From Microvirga alba (GTDB taxonomy: Bacteria > Pseudomonadota > Alphaproteobacteria > Rhizobiales > Beijerinckiaceae): a DNA stretch of 64,000 nucleotides. The translations under genes and the position numbers were made by a program. The notes under the pieces were generated by a model, which was not told the origin of the DNA, made no database searches, and saw only the letters and a program-made list of their open reading frames with translations. Where the stretch lies: the NCBI RefSeq assembly GCF_015694465.1, contig NZ_JADQDO010000002.1, positions 434,001-498,000 of the forward strand, given 5' to 3'. Below are positions 25,531 through 64,000 of the stretch, in pieces (within the stretch, counting starts at the first letter, position 1; every line of letters starts with the position of its first letter).

Positions 25531-27717
25531 ATGACGACCCAATTCCTGACAGCCGGAGCCCTGGATTTCACGATTGCTGAGGTGAATTCCGGCGATACCC
25601 CCCTCATTATCGGCACCATCAGCCAGGCCGGGGACCCTGCGGATGTGTCCTATGCCGTTCAGGGTGGGGTGAACAGCCTGTTTACCATTGTCGCAGAAGG
25701 CGGCGAATATAAGCTCGCATTGAAAGCTCATAGTTCTCTCAACTACGAGGCCTCTGCCGACCATAAGGTGAATGCGGTCATCGTCCTGAACACGGACCTC
25801 GGCGAGCCCACCTATCGAAACGTGGTTGTAACGCTGACCGACGTCAACGAGAGGCCGGTCCTGACGGTGCCGACCGCCCCTCTCCTGACGGCGGACAATG
25901 CGCCCGCCTTCAAACCCTTTGAGATCGTGGCGATCTCCGATGAGGATATTGGCGACGAACTGACGGTTTCCATCAGCTTTGACACCAGCCTCGGAACGCT
26001 CGGCAATCTCGGCGGCGGCACTGTCGATACCGAAACCGGAACTTACACGGTCAAGGGCTCCGCGGCGCTCGTTCAGGCCGCGGTCAAGGCATTGGCCTTC
26101 GATCCCCGCGACCGCCCCGCCGCAGCCGGCTCGCAGGAGATGATCAGATTCACGATCAAGGTCGAGGACAAGGAAGGTCTCAAGGTTGAAAAGACCGTCG
26201 ACGTTGTGTCCACCACCCACAATCATCTTCCAACCGATGTCGCCCTCTCGAACAACAAGATCGTCGAAAATTCGGCATCGGTGACCGTCGGCACCTTGAG
26301 CGCCAACGACTTCAACGGTGACACCCTGACATTCACCCTCGTCACGGATGCGACCGGCGCCGAGGAAAAAACCGACGGCCCCTTCGTCGTGAAGACGGAA
26401 ATCGTCGACGGAAATACCGTCTACGCGCTCGCGACCGCCGGGGGGATCGACATCGACGTCAAGGAAACCCACGCCGTCTGGATCAAGGTGAATGACGGCC
26501 ACGGGGGAATCGTGACGAAGAAGTTCGACGTCACGATCAACCCGGACAATACGATTCCGATGGTCGTGGTCGATGCGGCCAAGGCGTGGATTCAGACTGA
26601 GGATAACGGCCCGAGCGTGGCGCCGTTCACGGGCGTCACCTTCGACGACGGCGACGACAATGATGACCTCACGGTCAAGATTTCGTTCACCGCCGCCAAT
26701 GGCGTGCTCGAAAACTTCGGCACCGCCCCCTCCGAGGTCGCCGACGGCGTCAAGACCTACACGTTCAAGGGCAAGGCTGCCGATCTGGCCACGACCCTGG
26801 CCGCCGTGAAGTTCAACCCGACCGACAATCCGACCGGAATAACGGGCGACGGGCTCACCACGACCTTCACCATCTCGGTCACCGATGACGCTCACCCCAC
26901 CCCGGCCACGAACCGCACCGTGACGGTGATCTCCGTGGTGGCCAACCGCGCCCCGACGGATATCAAGCTGAGCGGCAGCCTGTCGGTGCTGGAAATGGCG
27001 GATACCGACACCCTCGTCGGCGCTCTGTCGGCGGTCGACACCAATGCCGAGGAGACCTTCACCTACAAGCTCGTCGATGATGCGGGCGGCCGCTTCAAGC
27101 TCGACGCGAGCGGAACCAAACTCGTGGTGGCCAACGGCCTGAAGCTCGATTACGAGCAGGCCAAGTCGCACACGATCAAGGTGCAAGTGAAAGACAAGGA
27201 GGGGGCCACCTTCGAGAAGACCTTCAAGATCGATGTCGGCGACGTGGCCGTCGAGAACCGGGTCGGTTCCGTCGGTGATGACTTCCTTGTCGGCGGCACC
27301 GGCAAGGACAACTTCAACGGCGGGGCCGGCAACGACACGCTCAGCGGCGGTCTCGGCAACGACACCCTGACCGGCGGCGCCGGCAAGGACGTGTTCGTGT
27401 TCGACACCAAGCTGAACGCGAAGAACAACCTCGACAAGATCGTCGACTTCAACGTCAAGGACGACACGATCTGGCTCGACAACGCCATCTTCACCAAGCT
27501 CGGCAAGAAAGGCTCGCCCACGAGCCCGGCGAAGCTCGACAAGAAGTTCTTCACCATCGGCGACAAGGCCAAGGATAAGGACGACTACATCGTCTACGAC
27601 AACAAGAAGGGCGTCCTCTATTACGATGCCGACGGTTCGGGTGCGGGCAAGGCTGTCGCCTTCGCCACGATCTCCAAGAACCTCAAGATGACCGCCGCCG
27701 ACTTCATGGTCATCTAA
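25531..27717 (+). CDS. Cadherin-like/RTX secreted protein
   Basis: 728 residues with no signal peptide. Several cadherin-like beta-sandwich repeats (junctions LTDVNERP, NHLPTDVALS and NRAPTDIKLS) are followed at about 575-620 by RTX nonapeptides (GGAGNDTLSGGLGNDTLTGG) and a 105-residue tail ending DFMVI. The cadherin-like repeat just before the RTX block and the tail match the large RTX proteins at 54139 and 58163. Likely exported by type I secretion and, by analogy with similar repeat proteins, a surface adhesin or matrix protein. ATG has AAGGA about 11 bp upstream. Strong terminator follows. Confidence 0.9.
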   Translation: MTTQFLTAGALDFTIAEVNSGDTPLIIGTISQAGDPADVSYAVQGGVNSLFTIVAEGGEYKLALKAHSSLNYEASADHKVNAVIVLNTDLGEPTYRNVVVTLTDVNERPVLTVPTAPLLTADNAPAFKPFEIVAISDEDIGDELTVSISFDTSLGTLGNLGGGTVDTETGTYTVKGSAALVQAAVKALAFDPRDRPAAAGSQEMIRFTIKVEDKEGLKVEKTVDVVSTTHNHLPTDVALSNNKIVENSASVTVGTLSANDFNGDTLTFTLVTDATGAEEKTDGPFVVKTEIVDGNTVYALATAGGIDIDVKETHAVWIKVNDGHGGIVTKKFDVTINPDNTIPMVVVDAAKAWIQTEDNGPSVAPFTGVTFDDGDDNDDLTVKISFTAANGVLENFGTAPSEVADGVKTYTFKGKAADLATTLAAVKFNPTDNPTGITGDGLTTTFTISVTDDAHPTPATNRTVTVISVVANRAPTDIKLSGSLSVLEMADTDTLVGALSAVDTNAEETFTYKLVDDAGGRFKLDASGTKLVVANGLKLDYEQAKSHTIKVQVKDKEGATFEKTFKIDVGDVAVENRVGSVGDDFLVGGTGKDNFNGGAGNDTLSGGLGNDTLTGGAGKDVFVFDTKLNAKNNLDKIVDFNVKDDTIWLDNAIFTKLGKKGSPTSPAKLDKKFFTIGDKAKDKDDYIVYDNKKGVLYYDADGSGAGKAVAFATISKNLKMTAADFMVI

Positions 27718-41224: not shown

Positions 41225-42103
41225 TTAACCTCCAGACGATCCCGGATCGGCCACGCCGTCCGGGATGACGCCGAGGGTCACGCCGCAGGCCTGAACCCGC
41301 TCGCGCATATGCTCCGGCACCGGCGCTTCCACCGTGATCGGCGCTTTCTTCGGATAGAGCGGCACCGTCACCGCGCGAGCGTGGAGGTGCAGGCCGGGAC
41401 CGCCGAAGCGCGGGGCCGTGCCGTAGATCGGATCGCCCAGGATCGGGAAGCCGGACGCGGCGCAATGGACGCGAAGCTGATGGGTTCGGCCCGTGATGGG
41501 GCGCAGTTCGAGCAGCGTGAGGCGCGACCGATTCCCCTCCCCGTCGCCGGGAGGGGTTAAGGGTGGGGGTGTCGGCGCTCCATTCTGAGAGGTCGCACTC
41601 TCACTCCCCTCTCCAGCTCTCCTCCACAAGGGGGGAGAGGGCATCGCAGCGCTTCCAGCGCCCTGCCCGCTAGCGGTGAGGCTTCGCCCCAACACCCGCC
41701 ACTTGGTCAAGGAAGGCTGCCCCTTCGGATCGACCTTCATCCACCAGCCCCGATCGGGGGATTTCGGGGCGAGCGGCAGATCGATCTCGCCCTCGTCACC
41801 GTCCGGCCCGCCCTCGACCACGGCCCAATAGACCTTGTCGATTTCGTTACGCTTGAACATTTCGTTCAGGCGCGCGAGCGCCTTGGCGTGGCGGCCGAGG
41901 ATCAGGCAGCCGGAAGTGTCCTTGTCGAGCCGGTGCGCGGCTTCCGGCCGCCGGGGCAGGCCGAAGCGCAAGGCATCGAGGTGGTGGGTCAGGGTCTCGC
42001 CACCTTTCGGGCCCGGATGCACCGGCAAACCGGCAGGCTTGTTGATCACGAGCATCAGGGCATCGCGATACAGCAACTTCGACACTATCTCTTCCGCATT
42101 CAT
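41225..42103 (-). CDS. RluA-family pseudouridine synthase with in-frame repeat insertion
   Basis: 292 residues. NKPAGLPVHPGPKGG, catalytic Asp in EAAHRLDKDTSGCLIL, KVYWAVVEG and the C-terminal LRPITGRTHQLRVHCAA are diagnostic. Between KWRVLGRS and LTLLELRPITG, where homologues have a short connection, sits a 35-40-residue Pro/Gly/Ser-rich stretch encoded by a palindromic repeat (41534-41641). The insertion lies at a surface turn before the last strands, so the enzyme may still fold. ATG 42103 is chosen; the longer frame covers antisense of ftsY. Target uridine unknown. Confidence 0.92.
   Translation of the reverse strand: MNAEEIVSKLLYRDALMLVINKPAGLPVHPGPKGGETLTHHLDALRFGLPRRPEAAHRLDKDTSGCLILGRHAKALARLNEMFKRNEIDKVYWAVVEGGPDGDEGEIDLPLAPKSPDRGWWMKVDPKGQPSLTKWRVLGRSLTASGQGAGSAAMPSPPLWRRAGEGSESATSQNGAPTPPPLTPPGDGEGNRSRLTLLELRPITGRTHQLRVHCAASGFPILGDPIYGTAPRFGGPGLHLHARAVTVPLYPKKAPITVEAPVPEHMRERVQACGVTLGVIPDGVADPGSSGG
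41534..41641 (-). repeat. Palindromic repeat inside the pseudouridine synthase frame
   Basis: On the minus strand it starts CCCTCTCCCCCCTTGTGGAG and ends with the hairpin CCCCTCCCGGCGACGGGGAGG. Its two-hairpin layout is like the copies at 23853 and 34011, but with a different core (ACCCCCACCCTTAACC), so it is a related subfamily. The reading frame of the enzyme passes through it. Confidence 0.8.
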
Positions 42104-54138: not shown

Positions 54139-57100
54139 TTAGATGACGAAGAATTCAGCGGCCGTCATCTTGAGGTTCTTCTTGAGGGTGGCGATTTCGA
54201 CTGCCTTGCCGGCGCCGTCACCATCCGCATCGTAGTAGAGGACGCCCTTCTTGGCATTGTAGATGATGTAATCATCCTTGTCCTTGGCGGCGTCACCAAT
54301 CGTGAAGAAGGCCTTGTTCATCTTGACCGGCTTGTCGGGCGTACCCTTCTTGCCGAGCTTCTTGAAGATCGCATTGTCGAGATAGATGCTGTCATCTTTC
54401 ACGACATAATCGGTGATCTTGTCGAGGTTCTTCTTCTTGTCCAACTTGGTGTCGAACACGAAGACATCCTTGCCCGCGCCGCCGCTCAGGGTGTCGTTGC
54501 CGAGACCACCGGACAGCGTATCGTTGCCGAGGCCGCCGCCAAGGTTGTCCTTACCGACGCCGCCGACGATCTTGTCATCCTCGGCGCTGCCGGCCGTGAT
54601 CTCGGGATTCACGTCCGTCACGCTGATGGTCATGGTCTTCGTGAAGGTCAGACCGCCGCCGTCCTTCGCTTCGACCGTGATCTGATGAGACGTGGCCTGC
54701 TCGAAGTCGAGCTTGATGCCCTTCTTCACCTTGAGCGCGTTGCCGACGATCTCGAAACGATCGTCGGCGCTGCTGAGGAGTTTATACGAGAAGGCCGTGT
54801 TGCCATCCGGGTCCAGCGCCGAGAGGGAACCGACGCTGGTGCCCGCCGCGCTCAACTCCGCCACGCTGTACTTGCTTAGCGTGATGTCGGTCGGCGCGCG
54901 GTTCGGGATCGGCGTCGTCTCGAAGTCGTCGTTCAGGATCTTGCCGTTAGCGGAGATCTTCGTGGGGTTGATCTGAGCCCCGAGCGCATTGGAGAGCGTG
55001 ACAGTGAACGCCTCGTCCGACTCGATAAGCTTGTCACCCTTGACCTTGACGGTGATGGTGGCGGTCGTTTGGTTGGCCGCGAAATTGACGACGTCGCTCA
55101 TCTTCTCAACGTCGGCGGCGTCCACGGCTCCGGTGATTGCCCAATTCACGCTCGCCGCCGCCGTCGCGTTCGTCCGCGTCACTGTGAAGGTGAAGTCCGT
55201 GAAGCCCGTGTCGCCCTCGTATTTCACGGCATCGGTGGCCGCGATGGAAATGACCGAGGCCGCAGGATCGATGTCGTCGTTGCGGATCGTGCCGTTGGCG
55301 GTTGCAACGGCGATGTCTGCATTGGTGGCGTTGCTCAGCCGGACAAGGAACGTTTCGTCAAAACCACCCTCGTATTCCGTGTCGCCGATGACCTTGACCT
55401 TGATGACCTGGGACGTTTCGCCGTCGGCAAAGTTCACCGTGCCCGTGAACGTCGCAAAATCCACCCCAGGTGTGGCCGGATGCGTACCGGTTCCTTCCAC
55501 CGTCCAGGTGACGCTCGAAGCGCCAGTTCCGCTGCTGCGAGTGACCGTAAAGAGGAATTCAGTCGTGCCCGAGTCGCCCTCGAACTTGTCCGCATCCGTC
55601 GCCACAATCGACAGGGCCGGCTTATTTCCGCTCACGACATTGACGTTATAGGTCTTGGTCGGGGACACGAGGGTGCCGTCATAGGCAATGACCTTCAGGT
55701 CATACGAGCCCACATGCGCGTTGGTGATATTCGTGTTCGTCGTGATCTGGCCCGTCGTGGCGTTGATCGTGAAGATCCCGTCCGTCACCCCCCCGTTCTC
55801 GAACTTGTAGAGGTTGTTGCGGAAGCCGCTGGCGGGCCCATCCGGATCCACAGCCGTTGCCAGAACCACCTGCGAGTTGATTGCCGTCGATCCCGCTTGA
55901 ATCACATGCGGGCTGGAGAACGTCACGTCCGTCGGCGCTTCGTTCACGTCTTTGAGGTTGATCGTGAAGTTCTGGGTTGTCGACATTGCGCCAGCGCCGC
56001 CGTCCAGGTCTTTGACCGTGACCGCGACTGCGAATTGATTCGTGGCCTCGAAGTTGAGGTTGGCCCCGTTCTTGACGAAGATCCGGCCGGTCATCGCATC
56101 GATGTCGAAGCGGGTATCGTTCATGAAGTAGCGAAGATGGGTCGGTCCGCCGTCGTCGTCCGCCGTAACGGTCCCGACAGTCACATTGAACCCCGAGTTC
56201 TCGTCCACCTGCGCGGTCGTTCCGCCGTTCAACTTCACGTTCGTCGGCGCCGTGTTGGCTGCCGCCGCGACGGTGACGTTAAAGGTCTTGGTCGGGGACA
56301 CGAGGGCGCCGTCATAGGCAATGACCTTCAGGCCATACGAACCCACATGCGCGTTGGTGATATTCGTGTTGGTCGTGATCTGGCCCGTCGCGGCATCAAT
56401 CGTGAAGATCCCGTCCGTCACCCCGCCGTTCTCAAACTTGTAGCGGTTGTTGCGGAAGCCGCTGGCAGGCCCATCCGGATCCACCGCCGTTGCCAGAACA
56501 ACCTGCGAGTTGATTGCCGTCGATCCCGCCTGGATCGTCTGAGCGTTGGAGAACGTCACGTCCGTCGGCGCTTCGTTCACGTCTTTGAGGTTGATCGTGA
56601 AGTTCTGGGTTACCGAATTTGCGCCAGTGCCGCCATCCAGGTCCTTGACCGTGACCGCGACCGTGAACTGGTTCGCGGCCTCGAAGTTGAGGTTGGCCCC
56701 GTTCTTGACGAAGATTCGGCCGGTCGTCGCATCGATGTCGAAGCGGGTATCGTTCATGAAGTAGCGAAGATGGGTCGGTCCGCCGTCGTCGTCCGCCGTA
56801 ACGGTCCCGACAGTCACATTGAACCCGGAGTTCTCGTCCACCTGCGCGGTCGTTCCGCCGTTCAACTTCACATTCGTCGGCGGCGTGTTGACCGTGTCAT
56901 TCTTATCGTTGACGAAGACCTTGAAAGTCTTTTCCAGGAACAAGGGCGTAGTCCCGACAGCGCCGCCGCCGTCAGTGACGCGCACTTTAACTTCGTAATA
57001 CCTGCTTAGGCCGCCATCGTCCGACTTCAGGAGATTTCCCGGGAGGCCGTAATCCTCGAAATCAAGACTGCCCGTCGTCAGAATTTTCTTGCCGGTTCCA

Positions 57101-58162: not shown

Positions 58163-61100
58163 TCAGATCACCAGGAAATTGGTGTGAGACAGATCGGGCG
58201 CCTTCTGCAGGATCGCGAACTGAACCGCCTTCGCATCCGTGCCGCTGCCGTCCGCGTCGTAATACAGGAAGCCGGTCGTATCGTCGTAAATGATCCGCTG
58301 GAACTCGTCCGTCGCCTCCGCTCCCACATGGAACTGCGCCGCACTCAGCGCACCCTTCGTCAACAGCGTGAACGCACCCACCTTCTGCAGGTGGATCATG
58401 TCGTCGGCCTTGTTGAAGTCCGTGATCGTATCGATGTTCTTGTCGCTCGGCTTCGTGTCGAAAACAAACACGTCCTTGCCGCCGCCGCCCGTCAACTTAT
58501 CGTTACCCAGGCCGCCCCAAAGCGTGTCGTTGCCTTCGCCGCCGATCAGAACATCCTTGCCGCCCGTCGCCTTGATCTTGTCGTCCGTCGCGGCGCCGAC
58601 CCGCATGATCTCCGTCGACAGGTTCAGGATATCGACCTTCCTCGACACGACAAGCTCATGGCCTGCCGAGTCCTTCACCAGGATCTCGATCTCGTACTCG
58701 CTGCCAAACTCGTAATCGAGCTTCACACCGTTCTTCACGAGAAGAACGTTGTTCGCTGTCGGATCCAGTTCAAACGCATCCCCGCCTTTGAGAAGCGTGT
58801 AGGTGAACGTGTCGCCCGTATCCGGGTCCACTGCCGCAAGCGTCCCGACATATGTCCCACTCGACGAAAGCTCCGCTACAGAACCGCCATCCGAAAACTC
58901 AATACCCGTCGGAGCGCTGTTGCTGGAGAAATAGCGGATATCATCGATGCCTTGCGCCTGGAGATGCGCGATGAAATCTGCAAGCCCCGTCTCGCTATAG
59001 TTGCTCTTATCAAGGTAGGCGATGTCCCACCCGCCGGTGTCGAGTCCGACATCGTCCAATGCGCTGCGGAGGTAGTATTTATCGTTGCCGCCGCCGCCGA
59101 TGAGCGTAACGCCAGCCAGCGGATCGACATGGGCGCCGCTATCGAGGATGTCATTCCAATTTCCACCCTCGATGGTCTGGGTGTGCGCGCCCGCGATCAG
59201 GTGCACGCCGACAGGCTCACCGTCGGATTCCGGATCGAGGGGATCCGGTGCGAAGCTGATGTTGCCTGCCTTGAGCACCTCGATGCCGAGGTCATCCGCG
59301 ATCCTGTACTTGCGGAGATACACCTCGGCGACGTCACGCGTGCCGTCCGCCTTGTCGAGGCTCTCCTGGATCAGGTCGTTCTCGTGGCGGATGAAATAGG
59401 TGTCGTTGCCGATGCCGCCCTGGAGCGTATCGGCGTCGCTGCCGCCGATGCCGCCATCCAGCGTATCGTCTCCGCCGAGCCCGATGAGCTTGTTGGCGAA
59501 TTCGTTGCCGACGATCTCGTTGCTCGCGCCGTTGCCGATCAGTTCGATCGCGCCCGTGCCGGCGCCCGCCTGCAGATTCTCGAAGTTCTCGAGGAGCGTG
59601 TAGGTGGGGAGTGCCGTGTTGACGAGGCGAATGGTATCCCTGCCATGATCGAGACCATTGGTCTCATCGAGGATCACCGTGGTCGGATCGCTGATGATGT
59701 ACAGATCATCGCCGAGGCCGCCGCGAAGAATGTCCTTGCCTGCCGGGCCGGTGCCGGGAGCTCCGTCGTGACCGAAGACGCCACCGCCATCAAGCGTATC
59801 GTCACCCTGGCCGCCGATGATGGTGTTGGTCAGGTTGTTGCCGATCAAATGCACGCCGAAGGTGACGTCCCCGCCAACCTCGAGCTGCTCGACACCGACC
59901 GTGTCCTGCAGTTGGAACTTCTCGATAAAGACGATGGCCTTGTCGAAACCGCCGCTGACATCCGTGGTCTCGATGATCGCGTCGCCTTTATGACGGATGT
60001 AGTAGGTGTCGTTGCCGTCACCGCCATCCATCGTGGCGTCGTGATCCGGGTCGATGACATCGTCGCCGGGGCCTGTCTTGATCGTATCGTGCCCCTCGCT
60101 GTCGCGGAAGATGATACGCTCGACGTTCTTCAACGTGGAGATATCGTAGCCGTCGACCAGCACGATGGCCGTGTCGAAACCACCCTTCAATCCATCAAGC
60201 TCGGTCACCCGATCGTGCAGATTCCGGATGTAGTAGGTATCGTTGCCGTCACCGCCGATCAGCGTGTCGCCGGCGGTGATATCAGCGCGGTTGACACCGC
60301 CATCGAGCGTATCGTTACCCTTCAATCCGCTGATTTCCTGAGCGAATTCGTTGCCCGTGAGCTTGAATTCCTTTGTTCCCGTACGGCCATCCGCCTCGAT
60401 TCTCTCGATCGCCACCGTGCCACCAAGCGTGTACTCCGCGAGAGTTACCTTGGCGATGTCGATGCCGGTTCCCGTTTCCTTCTCCTCGATCTTCGCGGTG
60501 TTGGCGCGCACGATATAGGTGTCGCCACCATCGCCGCCGATCAGGGTGTGGGCGACAGCGCCGGCCCCGCCATCGAGCTCGTCGTCGAACTTGCTGCCGA
60601 TGACGTAATCCTCGTTTCCGTTGCCGGTGAGCTTGAGTCCGGCCGTGACGTTGGTATCGGCCTTGAGGGTTCCCGCCGTCACCTTGTTGGTCAGCTTGTA
60701 ATCGACGGATGCGATGACCGTGTTCGAGCCCTGGTCATCGATGATGACATCATTCGGGTCGTCGACATAATAGGTGTCGTCTCCGAGGCCGCCCCGCATC
60801 TCGTCGGCGCCCTTGCCGCCGTTGATGATGTCGTTCTTGTTGCTGCCGTAGATCGTGTTGGCGTAATCGCTGCCGACGATGGACACCGCGGTGTCCATGT
60901 AGTCCGCATGAACCTTGATGACTTCGACCCGCGCCGCCCCGGCAAGCGTATAGGCAGTGGTCTTCAGTTCGACGGTGTCGATATCGGCCGGATTGCTGGT
61001 GTCCGTCTCTTCGATGGTTTCGCGTGAGTCGGTGATGATGTAGGTGTCACCGCCCTTACCACCCCTGAGAATGTCGGCGCCGCCACCGCCTTCGATCGTG

Positions 61101-64000
61101 TCGGCATAATCGCTGCCGACGATGCGCTGGGCGAGTTCGTTGCCCTTAACGTTGACGCTATGGGAGGCCCATATGGAGGTGAGCTCCTCGACCGAGGAAC
61201 CACCGTCGAGGGTGAACCCATTCCCCCAAACCATGACGGTGTCGTATCCTTCGCCCGCATTCTCGAAGACACGTGCGCGCTCATCCTCGACGACGTAGGT
61301 ATCGTTCCCGTTGCCGCCCCTCAAAGTGTCTTGGCCGGTATAGCCAGCGATGTAATCGTCAAACTGGGTGCCGATGATCTCATCGTCCTGGCCGTAGACA
61401 CCGTAGAGCTCCAACCCCACCTTCACAGCGCTGGCGTCCAGCACCTCGAATCCGCGCTGCAACTCGTAGGAAAAGTCGTTGGTGTCCGGATCCCAGAGGC
61501 CGTTCGCGGCAAGCTTGACCGTGTCGCGGCCGCCGCTCTCCAGGGTGCTCTCCTCCAGCGTGGAACTCAGCCGATCGTAGACGATGTAGGTGTCGTTGCC
61601 GGCGCCGCCTCGCAGCGTGTCCTGGCCACCAGCACCGTCGAGCGTGTTTTGCTTCTCATTACCGACGATGAGATTGTTATGGTAATTGCCGATGAGCGCG
61701 ATCGGACCGGTTCCATCGCCGGCCTCGAGCGTCTCAAAGCCGTTGCCCAGCGTATAGCTGGCATCCTTTATGTTGATGAGACGGACCGTATCGAGTCCCC
61801 ACCCCGGATCAGGGTCGTCCAATTCGTTGATTTTAACGGAGGAAACGCTGTCGCGGATAATGTAGACATCGCTGCCCTGGCCGCCGTCCAGCGAATCGTT
61901 GCCGCCGCCGCCATCGAGCGTGTCGTCGTAAGCGGATCCGTGGAGAGTCTGATTGAGCTTGTTTCCGGTCAGACCCACTCCGAGGGCAGGGCCTTTGTCC
62001 CCATCCGAGGCGACCGAATAGCCGTCAGCGGACAGATGCTCGATGCCAAGGCCTCCTTCAAGTGTGTAGGACAAGCCTCTGGTGATGTAGACCCAATCCT
62101 GGGCGCCGCCGCTGTCGACGATTTTGACCTTGGAATCGCGGACATAGTATTTGTCGTCCCCGATGCCGCCATCGAGAATGTCCTGCCCACCCGGCGAGCT
62201 GCCGATACCGCCGCTGTCCAGGGTGTCGTTCCCGTCACCGCCCTCAAGCGTGTTGGCGTAATCGTTGCCGCGAATGTAATTGTTGAGGGTATTTCCCTCG
62301 ACCCGCATGGCAACGGTGCCCGCGCCGAGGATGACGTTCTCAAGGCCGAGACCGTTATTGATCGTATAAAAACCCGGAAACTTCGCGCCCTCGAGAATGG
62401 CCGTGTCGCTGGTGCCGCTGCTGTCGACGATGAGATCTCCGACATCGTCGATGACATAGGTGTCGTTGCCCGCGCCGCCGTAAAGCGTATCGGCACCCGC
62501 ACCGCCATTGAGCGTATTGTCTAGAGAGTTTCCGCCCAGGCGGTCGGCCTTATCCGTTCCGATCAGCCCCTCGATCTCAACGTAGGTGTCGCCCAGGGCA
62601 TCGAAAGTGTTCGTCTTGCCGGAAAACGGGTCCTGTTCCAGGAAGGCATCGACTTTGTTCGCGGAGCCCGCATAGCTGACAATGTCAACGCCGGCCCCTC
62701 CGTTGAGATAGTCGCCGCCCTCGCCGCCCTTCAGCGTGTCGGAACCGCTCCCGCCATAGAGGTAGTCGGCACCCTGGCCGCCGTCGATGAAGTCGTCGTC
62801 CTCCCGACCGTCGAGCGTATCCGCCTCGGTGCTTCCGTACATGACGTCGTTGCCAGCGCCGCCGGCCATCTCTTTGATGGTCGTGCTCGCGTACATCGTG
62901 TCGGCGCCGGCACTTCCATTGATCGCTTCGATTTCCACATAGATGTCGCTATGCGCCTCGTTCGAACTTTTGGATGTGTCGTTGGCGTTGATCACCAATC
63001 CTTTGCCGCCAACGACGTTCGCCCAGTTGTAGAGAACCCAGTCCTTACCTTCGCCACCGTGATAGAGGTCCGCGAAATCGCGAGAACCCGATATGAGCAG
63101 GTCATCGCCCTCGCCGCCATAGAGCGAGTCACTGCCATCGCCGCCATCCAGCGTATCGTTGTACCTGGTCCCGGCATATTGCATGTCCTTCGGGTCGCCT
63201 GCACCCGAGGTCCATTTCACCGGACTCTGCCGCCCGTCATAGACGCGTACATTGTCCCAGTAAGTGAATTTGGAATCAAAGTCGATCCAATCAACGGTAT
63301 ATCGCCCGTCGTGGAGGGATGACAGGTTCCCCGCGAACTTTCGCGGAGCCTCGGCTACGAGGGCATTCTCGGTGACCTTCGCACCATTCGAATCGAAGCT
63401 TTGCGTGTACCACGCGTAATAGGTTTCGCCTTCTACGACCTTGGAGCTCCGGATCGAGTAGAGGACCGCGAAGTTCCCATTGTCGAGCTCCACGATTTTG
63501 TTGGTGGTAATGTCGGTACTCGCATGCGCCATATTAATCTGGGTCAGCACATCGCCAGTTGAGGACAAGATGATGACCTTGCCCTGGTTGAAAACTGCGA
63601 ATTTTCCATTGGACAACTGCGTGAAGCCCGCGCCTTCGTAGTCATAAACGGCAAGAGGCAACAGCCTCGGTGCGGAGACTTGGGTCCCGAGGGGACTGGT
63701 GAAGTATATGTGGGTCCCCGAACCTTCAGCCGAGTTCCCGGCCGCGAGATAGGCAATGCCGCCATTCTTCGTATCGATGATCGGTGCCTTTATAAATCCT
63801 ACCGTCGCCGGAGGCGCGCCCGGATTCTGGAGAACCCCCGAGTTATCATAATACGAGATCACGCGACTGCCGGCAGAATAGTCATTGATCGTGAAGCCGC
63901 CGCCGGTAAGTCCCGTGATCTGGCCGGCAGTCGCCTCGAAGGAGGTTGCATTCCCGGAGGAATCGAAAATGGCGCCCTTCCTTTTGCCCGAAGTATCGGT
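58163..64000 (-). CDS. Giant RTX repeat protein, 5' end outside the window
   Basis: At least 1945 residues; the frame is still open at the right edge. The visible N-terminal part (about 200 residues) has strands such as FTQLSNGKFAVF and IVELDNGNFAVLY, like beta-propeller-type repeats of other large RTX proteins. It is followed by 13 cycles of a unit with GGxGNDTYxIxD, each separated by 60-110 residues containing LxGNxxxNxIxG strands. The end carries a cadherin-like module, RTX nonapeptides and the tail ending NFLVI. Many Asp/Gly sites suggest dozens of bound calcium ions and type I secretion. Function unknown; adhesion or S-layer-like coating is plausible. Confidence 0.9.
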   Translation of the reverse strand, partial: TDTSGKRKGAIFDSSGNATSFEATAGQITGLTGGGFTINDYSAGSRVISYYDNSGVLQNPGAPPATVGFIKAPIIDTKNGGIAYLAAGNSAEGSGTHIYFTSPLGTQVSAPRLLPLAVYDYEGAGFTQLSNGKFAVFNQGKVIILSSTGDVLTQINMAHASTDITTNKIVELDNGNFAVLYSIRSSKVVEGETYYAWYTQSFDSNGAKVTENALVAEAPRKFAGNLSSLHDGRYTVDWIDFDSKFTYWDNVRVYDGRQSPVKWTSGAGDPKDMQYAGTRYNDTLDGGDGSDSLYGGEGDDLLISGSRDFADLYHGGEGKDWVLYNWANVVGGKGLVINANDTSKSSNEAHSDIYVEIEAINGSAGADTMYASTTIKEMAGGAGNDVMYGSTEADTLDGREDDDFIDGGQGADYLYGGSGSDTLKGGEGGDYLNGGAGVDIVSYAGSANKVDAFLEQDPFSGKTNTFDALGDTYVEIEGLIGTDKADRLGGNSLDNTLNGGAGADTLYGGAGNDTYVIDDVGDLIVDSSGTSDTAILEGAKFPGFYTINNGLGLENVILGAGTVAMRVEGNTLNNYIRGNDYANTLEGGDGNDTLDSGGIGSSPGGQDILDGGIGDDKYYVRDSKVKIVDSGGAQDWVYITRGLSYTLEGGLGIEHLSADGYSVASDGDKGPALGVGLTGNKLNQTLHGSAYDDTLDGGGGNDSLDGGQGSDVYIIRDSVSSVKINELDDPDPGWGLDTVRLINIKDASYTLGNGFETLEAGDGTGPIALIGNYHNNLIVGNEKQNTLDGAGGQDTLRGGAGNDTYIVYDRLSSTLEESTLESGGRDTVKLAANGLWDPDTNDFSYELQRGFEVLDASAVKVGLELYGVYGQDDEIIGTQFDDYIAGYTGQDTLRGGNGNDTYVVEDERARVFENAGEGYDTVMVWGNGFTLDGGSSVEELTSIWASHSVNVKGNELAQRIVGSDYADTIEGGGGADILRGGKGGDTYIITDSRETIEETDTSNPADIDTVELKTTAYTLAGAARVEVIKVHADYMDTAVSIVGSDYANTIYGSNKNDIINGGKGADEMRGGLGDDTYYVDDPNDVIIDDQGSNTVIASVDYKLTNKVTAGTLKADTNVTAGLKLTGNGNEDYVIGSKFDDELDGGAGAVAHTLIGGDGGDTYIVRANTAKIEEKETGTGIDIAKVTLAEYTLGGTVAIERIEADGRTGTKEFKLTGNEFAQEISGLKGNDTLDGGVNRADITAGDTLIGGDGNDTYYIRNLHDRVTELDGLKGGFDTAIVLVDGYDISTLKNVERIIFRDSEGHDTIKTGPGDDVIDPDHDATMDGGDGNDTYYIRHKGDAIIETTDVSGGFDKAIVFIEKFQLQDTVGVEQLEVGGDVTFGVHLIGNNLTNTIIGGQGDDTLDGGGVFGHDGAPGTGPAGKDILRGGLGDDLYIISDPTTVILDETNGLDHGRDTIRLVNTALPTYTLLENFENLQAGAGTGAIELIGNGASNEIVGNEFANKLIGLGGDDTLDGGIGGSDADTLQGGIGNDTYFIRHENDLIQESLDKADGTRDVAEVYLRKYRIADDLGIEVLKAGNISFAPDPLDPESDGEPVGVHLIAGAHTQTIEGGNWNDILDSGAHVDPLAGVTLIGGGGNDKYYLRSALDDVGLDTGGWDIAYLDKSNYSETGLADFIAHLQAQGIDDIRYFSSNSAPTGIEFSDGGSVAELSSSGTYVGTLAAVDPDTGDTFTYTLLKGGDAFELDPTANNVLLVKNGVKLDYEFGSEYEIEILVKDSAGHELVVSRKVDILNLSTEIMRVGAATDDKIKATGGKDVLIGGEGNDTLWGGLGNDKLTGGGGKDVFVFDTKPSDKNIDTITDFNKADDMIHLQKVGAFTLLTKGALSAAQFHVGAEATDEFQRIIYDDTTGFLYYDADGSGTDAKAVQFAILQKAPDLSHTNFLVI

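Follow-up and report, generated by a model that had tools for sequence, protein, structure and literature searches.

Recurrent in-frame insertion of dispersed palindromic repeats at one coding site of an RluA-family pseudouridine synthase gene in Microvirga

Why does a pseudouridine synthase of the RluA family carry, between its conserved motifs, a long stretch rich in Pro, Gly and Ser, and has the protein been altered in any useful way by it? The question is raised by a gene at 41225–42103 (minus strand) of the window, as we call the whole 64,000-nt stretch of Microvirga alba DNA analysed here. The gene was identified from its open reading frame (ORF) and translation, from the Pfam profile PF00849 and by Foldseek. 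The ORF is uninterrupted, with 292 codons and a stop, and the insert lies within it. PF00849 (PseudoU_synth_2) was the sole Pfam domain of the protein (119.3 bits; cut-off 26.8), and its match, residues 18–216, spans the insert. The motifs HRLDKDTSG (residues 57–65) and TGRTHQLR (204–211), which we take to be the catalytic-Asp motif and the second motif of the family, are both present. H57, R58, L59 and D60, as well as T204 through Q209 and R211, were invariant in 48 aligned rows, paralogues included. An earlier note on this DNA had described the enzyme as intact on both sides of an inserted repeat, and these motifs bear it out. The closest solved relatives by sequence were RluD, RluA and RluC of Escherichia coli. 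In the alignment with RluD (1prz), the matched parts stop at chain residue 141 and resume at 148, so that six RluD residues stand opposite the long stretch here.

Comparison of 48 Microvirga genomes, labelled from G000 (this one) onward, placed the whole extra segment at codons 141–196 (41516–41683, minus strand). It has 56 codons at a place where the insert-free sister G043 has five (GR-SEGLA-LL), a net gain of 51 codons, and its 56 residues include 9 Pro, 9 Gly and 8 Ser. The core of this segment is a repeat of what we call family A, in which a spacer separates two GC-rich hairpins that are inverted relative to each other. Matches in the same genome and in G030 delimit the core at 41533–41641 (minus strand). 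The best match in the same genome covered 41532–41641 (110 nt, 81% identity, E = 6.6e-20); a second had 73% identity (E = 1.1e-7), and two shorter pieces were also found. The G030 element matched the insert over 41533–41655 at 75%. The earlier note had marked a palindromic repeat, internal and in frame, at 41534–41641 (108 nt, 36 codons), and the ORF, the PF00849 match and the copies in the same genome confirm that core. Its estimate of 35–40 inserted residues holds for the core; the whole extra part is larger.

As a palindrome, the copy in this gene has decayed. One hairpin (41534–41541 / 41549–41556) retains fully complementary 8-nt arms around a 7-nt loop; the other (41607–41614 / 41634–41641) is decayed, with 8-nt arms that are still perfect. 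Predicted RNA folding was unexceptional (z = −1.36; 14 of 200 shuffles were at least as stable). Folding energy was therefore dropped as proof of a palindrome for this copy, and the repeat assignment is based on homology within the family and on comparison with orthologues. Between the GR codons and the core lie 14 further codons (41642–41683, minus strand) that none of the repeats found here matched, as the matches in the same genome end at 41641 and the G030 match at 41655. Judging from the sequence, this part is perhaps the remnant of an earlier insertion.

A 7-bp direct repeat, GTGAGGC, surrounds the insert (left copy at 41676–41682, right copy at 41517–41523) and may be a target duplication, a feature sought in miniature elements of the MITE type along with terminal inverted repeats and a parental IS. 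By eye, no such flanking repeat was evident among the other repeat copies compared, and we do not take target duplication as a general feature of these elements. No Rfam family matched the insert segment at gathering thresholds. The whole window gave two Rfam matches, a tRNA and the 'ffh' sRNA (RF01793, 36684–36735, minus strand, 59.4 bits). Tandem repeats, mostly of 27-bp period, occur elsewhere in the window at 527–665, 27291–27390, 54487–54538 and 63095–63147, and one of period 36 at 59409–59486; presumably they resemble calcium-binding RTX-type repeats.

Where does the insert sit in the folded protein? A first model (46 of 121 proteins aligned, mean pLDDT 51) was too weak and was replaced by one built on an alignment of 48 varied sequences, which took in Methylobacterium orthologues and Microvirga paralogues (mean pLDDT 84, pTM 0.81). 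The best solved match of the predicted fold in Foldseek was E. coli RluA (2i82, E = 1.2e-18). In the model, the insert lies between strands 132–140 and 195–202. The ten-residue mean pLDDT was 41–62 at residues 141–190, compared with 90 or more across most of the core, and residues 159–182 were below 50. The prediction thus places the insertion point at the turn of a beta-hairpin and makes the insert a disordered loop, in agreement with the surface loop proposed in the earlier note.

The RluA gene was present in all 48 Microvirga genomes searched. In 30 of them the site was empty: the GR codons (GQ in G014) were followed by exactly 15 nt before the next strand began. The other 18 carried extra DNA, namely 16 long inserts and two short one-hairpin forms (54 nt in G021 and 81 nt in G044). 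The long inserts ranged from 128 to 213 nt, the 128-nt one (G007) being cut by a contig end. Three of them belonged to family A (G000, G030 and G007) and 13 to a second family, B. Reading frame was preserved throughout: the 17 inserts that could be followed to both ends each had a length divisible by three, and none of the 18 contained an in-frame stop. The two alternative sense frames were each open in only one of the 16 long inserts.

Could the inserts be products of assembly or annotation, or signs of a decaying pseudogene? The contigs of G007 and G034 do end in or near the insert. However, the insert studied here lies within a contig of 834,766 bases, that of G030 lies in a single-contig genome, independent named isolates bear inserts, and purifying selection acts on both flanks (see below). 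We give this explanation practically no credence.

Insert-free orthologues also exist outside the genus. Among 150 genomes of the order, all 29 matches from other genera with E < 1e-60 had at most 12 nt of extra DNA at the site; weaker matches, probably paralogues, were set aside. In a set of 121 proteins (this one and 120 listed relatives, a ranking that the insert-bearing query biases towards inserts), the site had at least 20 residues in 42, 12 or 16 in two, and five in 76; the insert of P0014 was missed by the pattern used and seen by eye. A scan with one genome per species kept the best 80 of 455 relatives. Among these, 34 loci were titled Microvirga: 12 had long inserts, 21 had none, and that of M. 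pudoricolor was short. This set probably overlaps the 48 genomes in many records, so the counts are not additive. Species with long inserts include M. soli, M. arabica, M. arvi, M. terrestris, M. solisilvae, M. guangxiensis, M. zambiensis and M. splendida. Among the same best 80, 39 of 44 Methylobacterium/Methylorubrum loci had 6–8 residues at the site; the remaining five had translations of 229–245 residues, with no space for a long insert. An insert of family A type was found in a metagenome-assembled genome (MAG) titled Xanthobacteraceae (L177). At this RluA site, a Hyphomicrobiales MAG (L205, 56% identity) had a different insert, rich in Pro and with ends that resemble hairpins.

Both families are dispersed in the genomes that carry them. 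Three family A copies of this genome (L002, L003 and L004) were intergenic, as judged by eye from the flanking open frames. A 151-nt family A query from G030 gave 79 matches in G030, 67 in G007, 21 in G000 and 18 in G043, where one copy may count on both strands and 40 candidates were scored in G030 and in G007. At the threshold used, the same query gave no match in G003 or G023. At least four further B copies were found in all 13 genomes with a B insert, compared with five of the 35 others (Fisher p = 4.4e-8, a value that takes genomes as independent and ignores kinship; 18 candidates were scored per genome). In G027, G031, G039 and G034 (L026–L029), the loop at the tip of the final B hairpin contained a third element, D, nested in frame, and B with D was found elsewhere in these genomes too. 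In P0003, inspection by eye also showed a D-like element within a type A insert, in its other arm.

What moves these repeats? PF01797, the profile of the REP-linked transposase (RAYT/Y1_Tnp), had no match in G000, G030 or G007. Six of the 48 Microvirga genomes had a match, of which G005 and G039 carry an insert, and as a control the profile was positive in 5 of 14 named genomes. Assignment to RAYT-borne REPs was rejected, PF01797 not having been found in this genome. Identity with GTAG-tagged REPs was also rejected: in the subset of copies fetched, two of 18 A copies and two of 16 B copies contained GTAG at any position, and the insert studied here lacked it. CGTC, counted regardless of its position in the stem, occurred in 3 of 18 A copies, in 12 of 16 B copies and in this insert.

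The same families lie in frame in other genes. B copies of high identity were found near the starts of xdhB (seven loci) and ybgC (five loci), gene names that were assigned by likeness to Pfam-supported frames; divergent ones were near rimM starts, and others were within an Lhr-type helicase gene. Family A copies were in frame in glyS, ybgC and rimM of G007, in xdhB of G030, and in uvrC and murJ of G043; those in glyS (glycyl-tRNA synthetase beta; L117), uvrC (L119) and murJ (L123) were internal. Pfam backed all nine repeat-bearing frames submitted. The ybgC gene was found in the 48 genomes and 30 loci were read (L240–L269), of which 15 carried an in-frame insert directly behind the initial codons (B, A-like or other, by eye); the ybgC of this genome (L262) had none. 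The start-proximal cases (ybgC, xdhB and rimM) are weaker than the internal ones because translation may begin downstream of the repeat. Many other copies of the repeats were intergenic. At the Lhr-type helicase site (L098, L099 and L102), B is inserted one way in G031 and G039 and the opposite way in G004, which points to separate insertions.

Was the RluA site likewise hit more than once? We built a tree of the RluA gene from all 48 genomes with the insert columns removed; it rests on one short gene, and its bootstrap values had not settled. The state of the insert changed 10 times on this tree, at least seven of them on well-supported branches. The insert state was clustered (shuffles gave a mean of 14.7 changes, and 6 of 500 were as low), so part of the insert pattern is inherited. 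Placing all 18 inserts in a single clade was rejected (p = 4.9e-9), as was a single clade for the 13 family B inserts (p = 4.8e-6) and, more weakly, for the three family A inserts (p = 0.014). Parsimony counts of this kind do not distinguish gain from loss. We nevertheless favour gains for most of the changes, given how uniform the empty sites are and what is seen in genomes next to the A carriers. G043, which groups with G000 on a well-supported branch, has family A copies in its genome and none at the RluA site. No A copy was found with the G030 query in G003, a well-supported neighbour of G007, or in G023, whose placement beside G030 is weak.

These results could in principle be reconciled with one ancient insertion in the ancestor of Microvirga, followed by many losses, drift and conversion by other copies, so that no more than one or two insertions took place there. 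Every insert is at the same point, the insert state is clustered, the B spacers are alike among several orthologues, and remnants could explain the short forms of G021 and G044. Such a history would, however, require precise losses that repeatedly restored exactly 15 nt, as in the 30 empty sites. It would also have to accommodate the difference between families A and B, the lack of family A copies in G003 and G023 at the threshold used, the rejection of a single clade in all three tests, if weakly for A, and the opposite orientations at the helicase site. We consider it unlikely. The RluA site has been recurrently hit by at least two repeat families and not in one event, a feature that goes beyond what the earlier note had described.

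Has the inserted peptide acquired a role? The earlier note had proposed 'coding exaptation', which the codon comparisons do not support. In the 13 type B inserts, differences fell almost evenly on codon positions 1, 2 and 3 (631/818/787), and codons with a single difference were 588 nonsynonymous and 291 synonymous. The flanks were unlike the inserts in this respect, with 706/283/3076 differences and 283 nonsynonymous and 2711 synonymous codons for the 5′ flank, and 663/436/1749 differences and 297 nonsynonymous and 1386 synonymous codons for the 3′ flank. The pairs counted share branches, and the counts are descriptive only. The codon test was limited to type B; the family A inserts number three. 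The flanks of carriers and non-carriers were under similar constraint. The median pairwise dN/dS of the 5′ flank was 0.079 in 14 carriers and 0.077 in 29 genes without an insert, and that of the 3′ flank was 0.177 and 0.170, respectively. The carriers were 14 of the 16 genes with long inserts (G034 and G007 were left out for a short or missing 3′ flank, and short forms were unused); the insert-free set was 29 of 30, without the outgroup G017. Among four pairs inspected, the highest 3′-flank dN/dS was that between G005 and its neighbour G015 (about 0.37). Equal constraint on the flanks, together with nearly unbiased B inserts, indicates that the enzyme is kept while the insert peptide is not visibly selected. 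The type B peptide thus seems free to drift as long as the frame is kept.

A loop recruited for a function, such as RNA contact, protein contact or regulation of translation by the hairpin, and kept by positive or purifying selection, could account for repeated gain in one conserved gene; the loop lies in an RNA-binding enzyme, and genes for RNA modification and ribosome assembly recur among the targets. The absence of codon-position bias in type B inserts, the lack of an insert in most genomes (30 of 48), and the similar evolution of the flanks with or without it make this account very improbable. Exaptation at the amino-acid level thus appears unsupported by these comparisons.

In-frame palindromic elements are already known in other bacteria; what is new here is the recurrently hit coding site. 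In Rickettsia, 19 reading frames were described as containing RPE (Rickettsia palindromic elements) in frame, and an RPE-bearing guanylate kinase was reported to be translated and active, according to a review (PMC2229807). The elements in Microvirga resemble RPE, as described there, in being dispersed palindromes of about 100–150 bp that are also intergenic and lie in frame in conserved genes. As for RPE, there are orthologues that lack the repeat. The likeness is drawn from the published description. The families and their sequence are probably different, the genus is one of soil, and several families occupy one coding site in many species with empty sisters. The insert in Microvirga probably works like an RPE; we file it neither under RPE in the strict sense nor under REPs carried by a RAYT.

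REP dimers of the GTAG and CGTC superfamilies have been found in frame within genes of several species, among them truB and truA, which encode tRNA pseudouridine synthases (Di Nocera et al. 2013, PMC3733652). That paper gives one case, Xanthomonas recB, of different REPs at the same site, and proposes loops and linkers as places that tolerate REPs. The gene here belongs to the RluA family, not to TruA or TruB, the repeats are about 110–200 bp with no regular GTAG tag, and recurrence was measured on a tree of 48 genomes. With RAYT-moved REPs, BIMEs and REPINs, as far as the descriptions consulted go, the repeats share dispersed GC-rich hairpins in inverted pairs; the difference is the distribution of PF01797 given above, with no match in the RluA family A carriers. 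A literature search, which had most subscription journals outside its coverage, found no paper on such inserts in Microvirga.

The in-frame repeat insert in the RluA gene of M. alba is real, and it shares a recurrently hit site with many others. We hold it to be highly probable that a dispersed palindromic repeat, placed in frame at a predicted turn of the enzyme, forms what is likely a disordered loop rich in Pro, Gly and Ser that is tolerated without a new function. The repeats would arrive by transposition-like copying, and insertions that break the frame would be lost through selection on the enzyme. The inserted loop would then be nearly neutral, and the full-length protein, insert included, would be made and active. 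We also put forward, only tentatively and as a rather doubtful extension, that the RluA loop and the ybgC start may be true landing sites, at which at least three palindromic families are repeatedly steered into the same codon of conserved genes by G-rich words resembling the repeat ends, for example the E-G codons where the RluA site is empty.

For annotation, these inserts are a warning that repeat DNA can underlie Pro/Gly-rich stretches such as SPLWGG...HKGEG. They also provide a many-species record, empty sites included, of repeats repeatedly entering one coding position. The gain of loops by tolerated insertion, the choice of site, and the mover of such repeats where no RAYT-type gene was found are now open to testing. 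If the landing-site reading were true, the coding DNA of free-living bacteria would have docking points for mobile palindromes.
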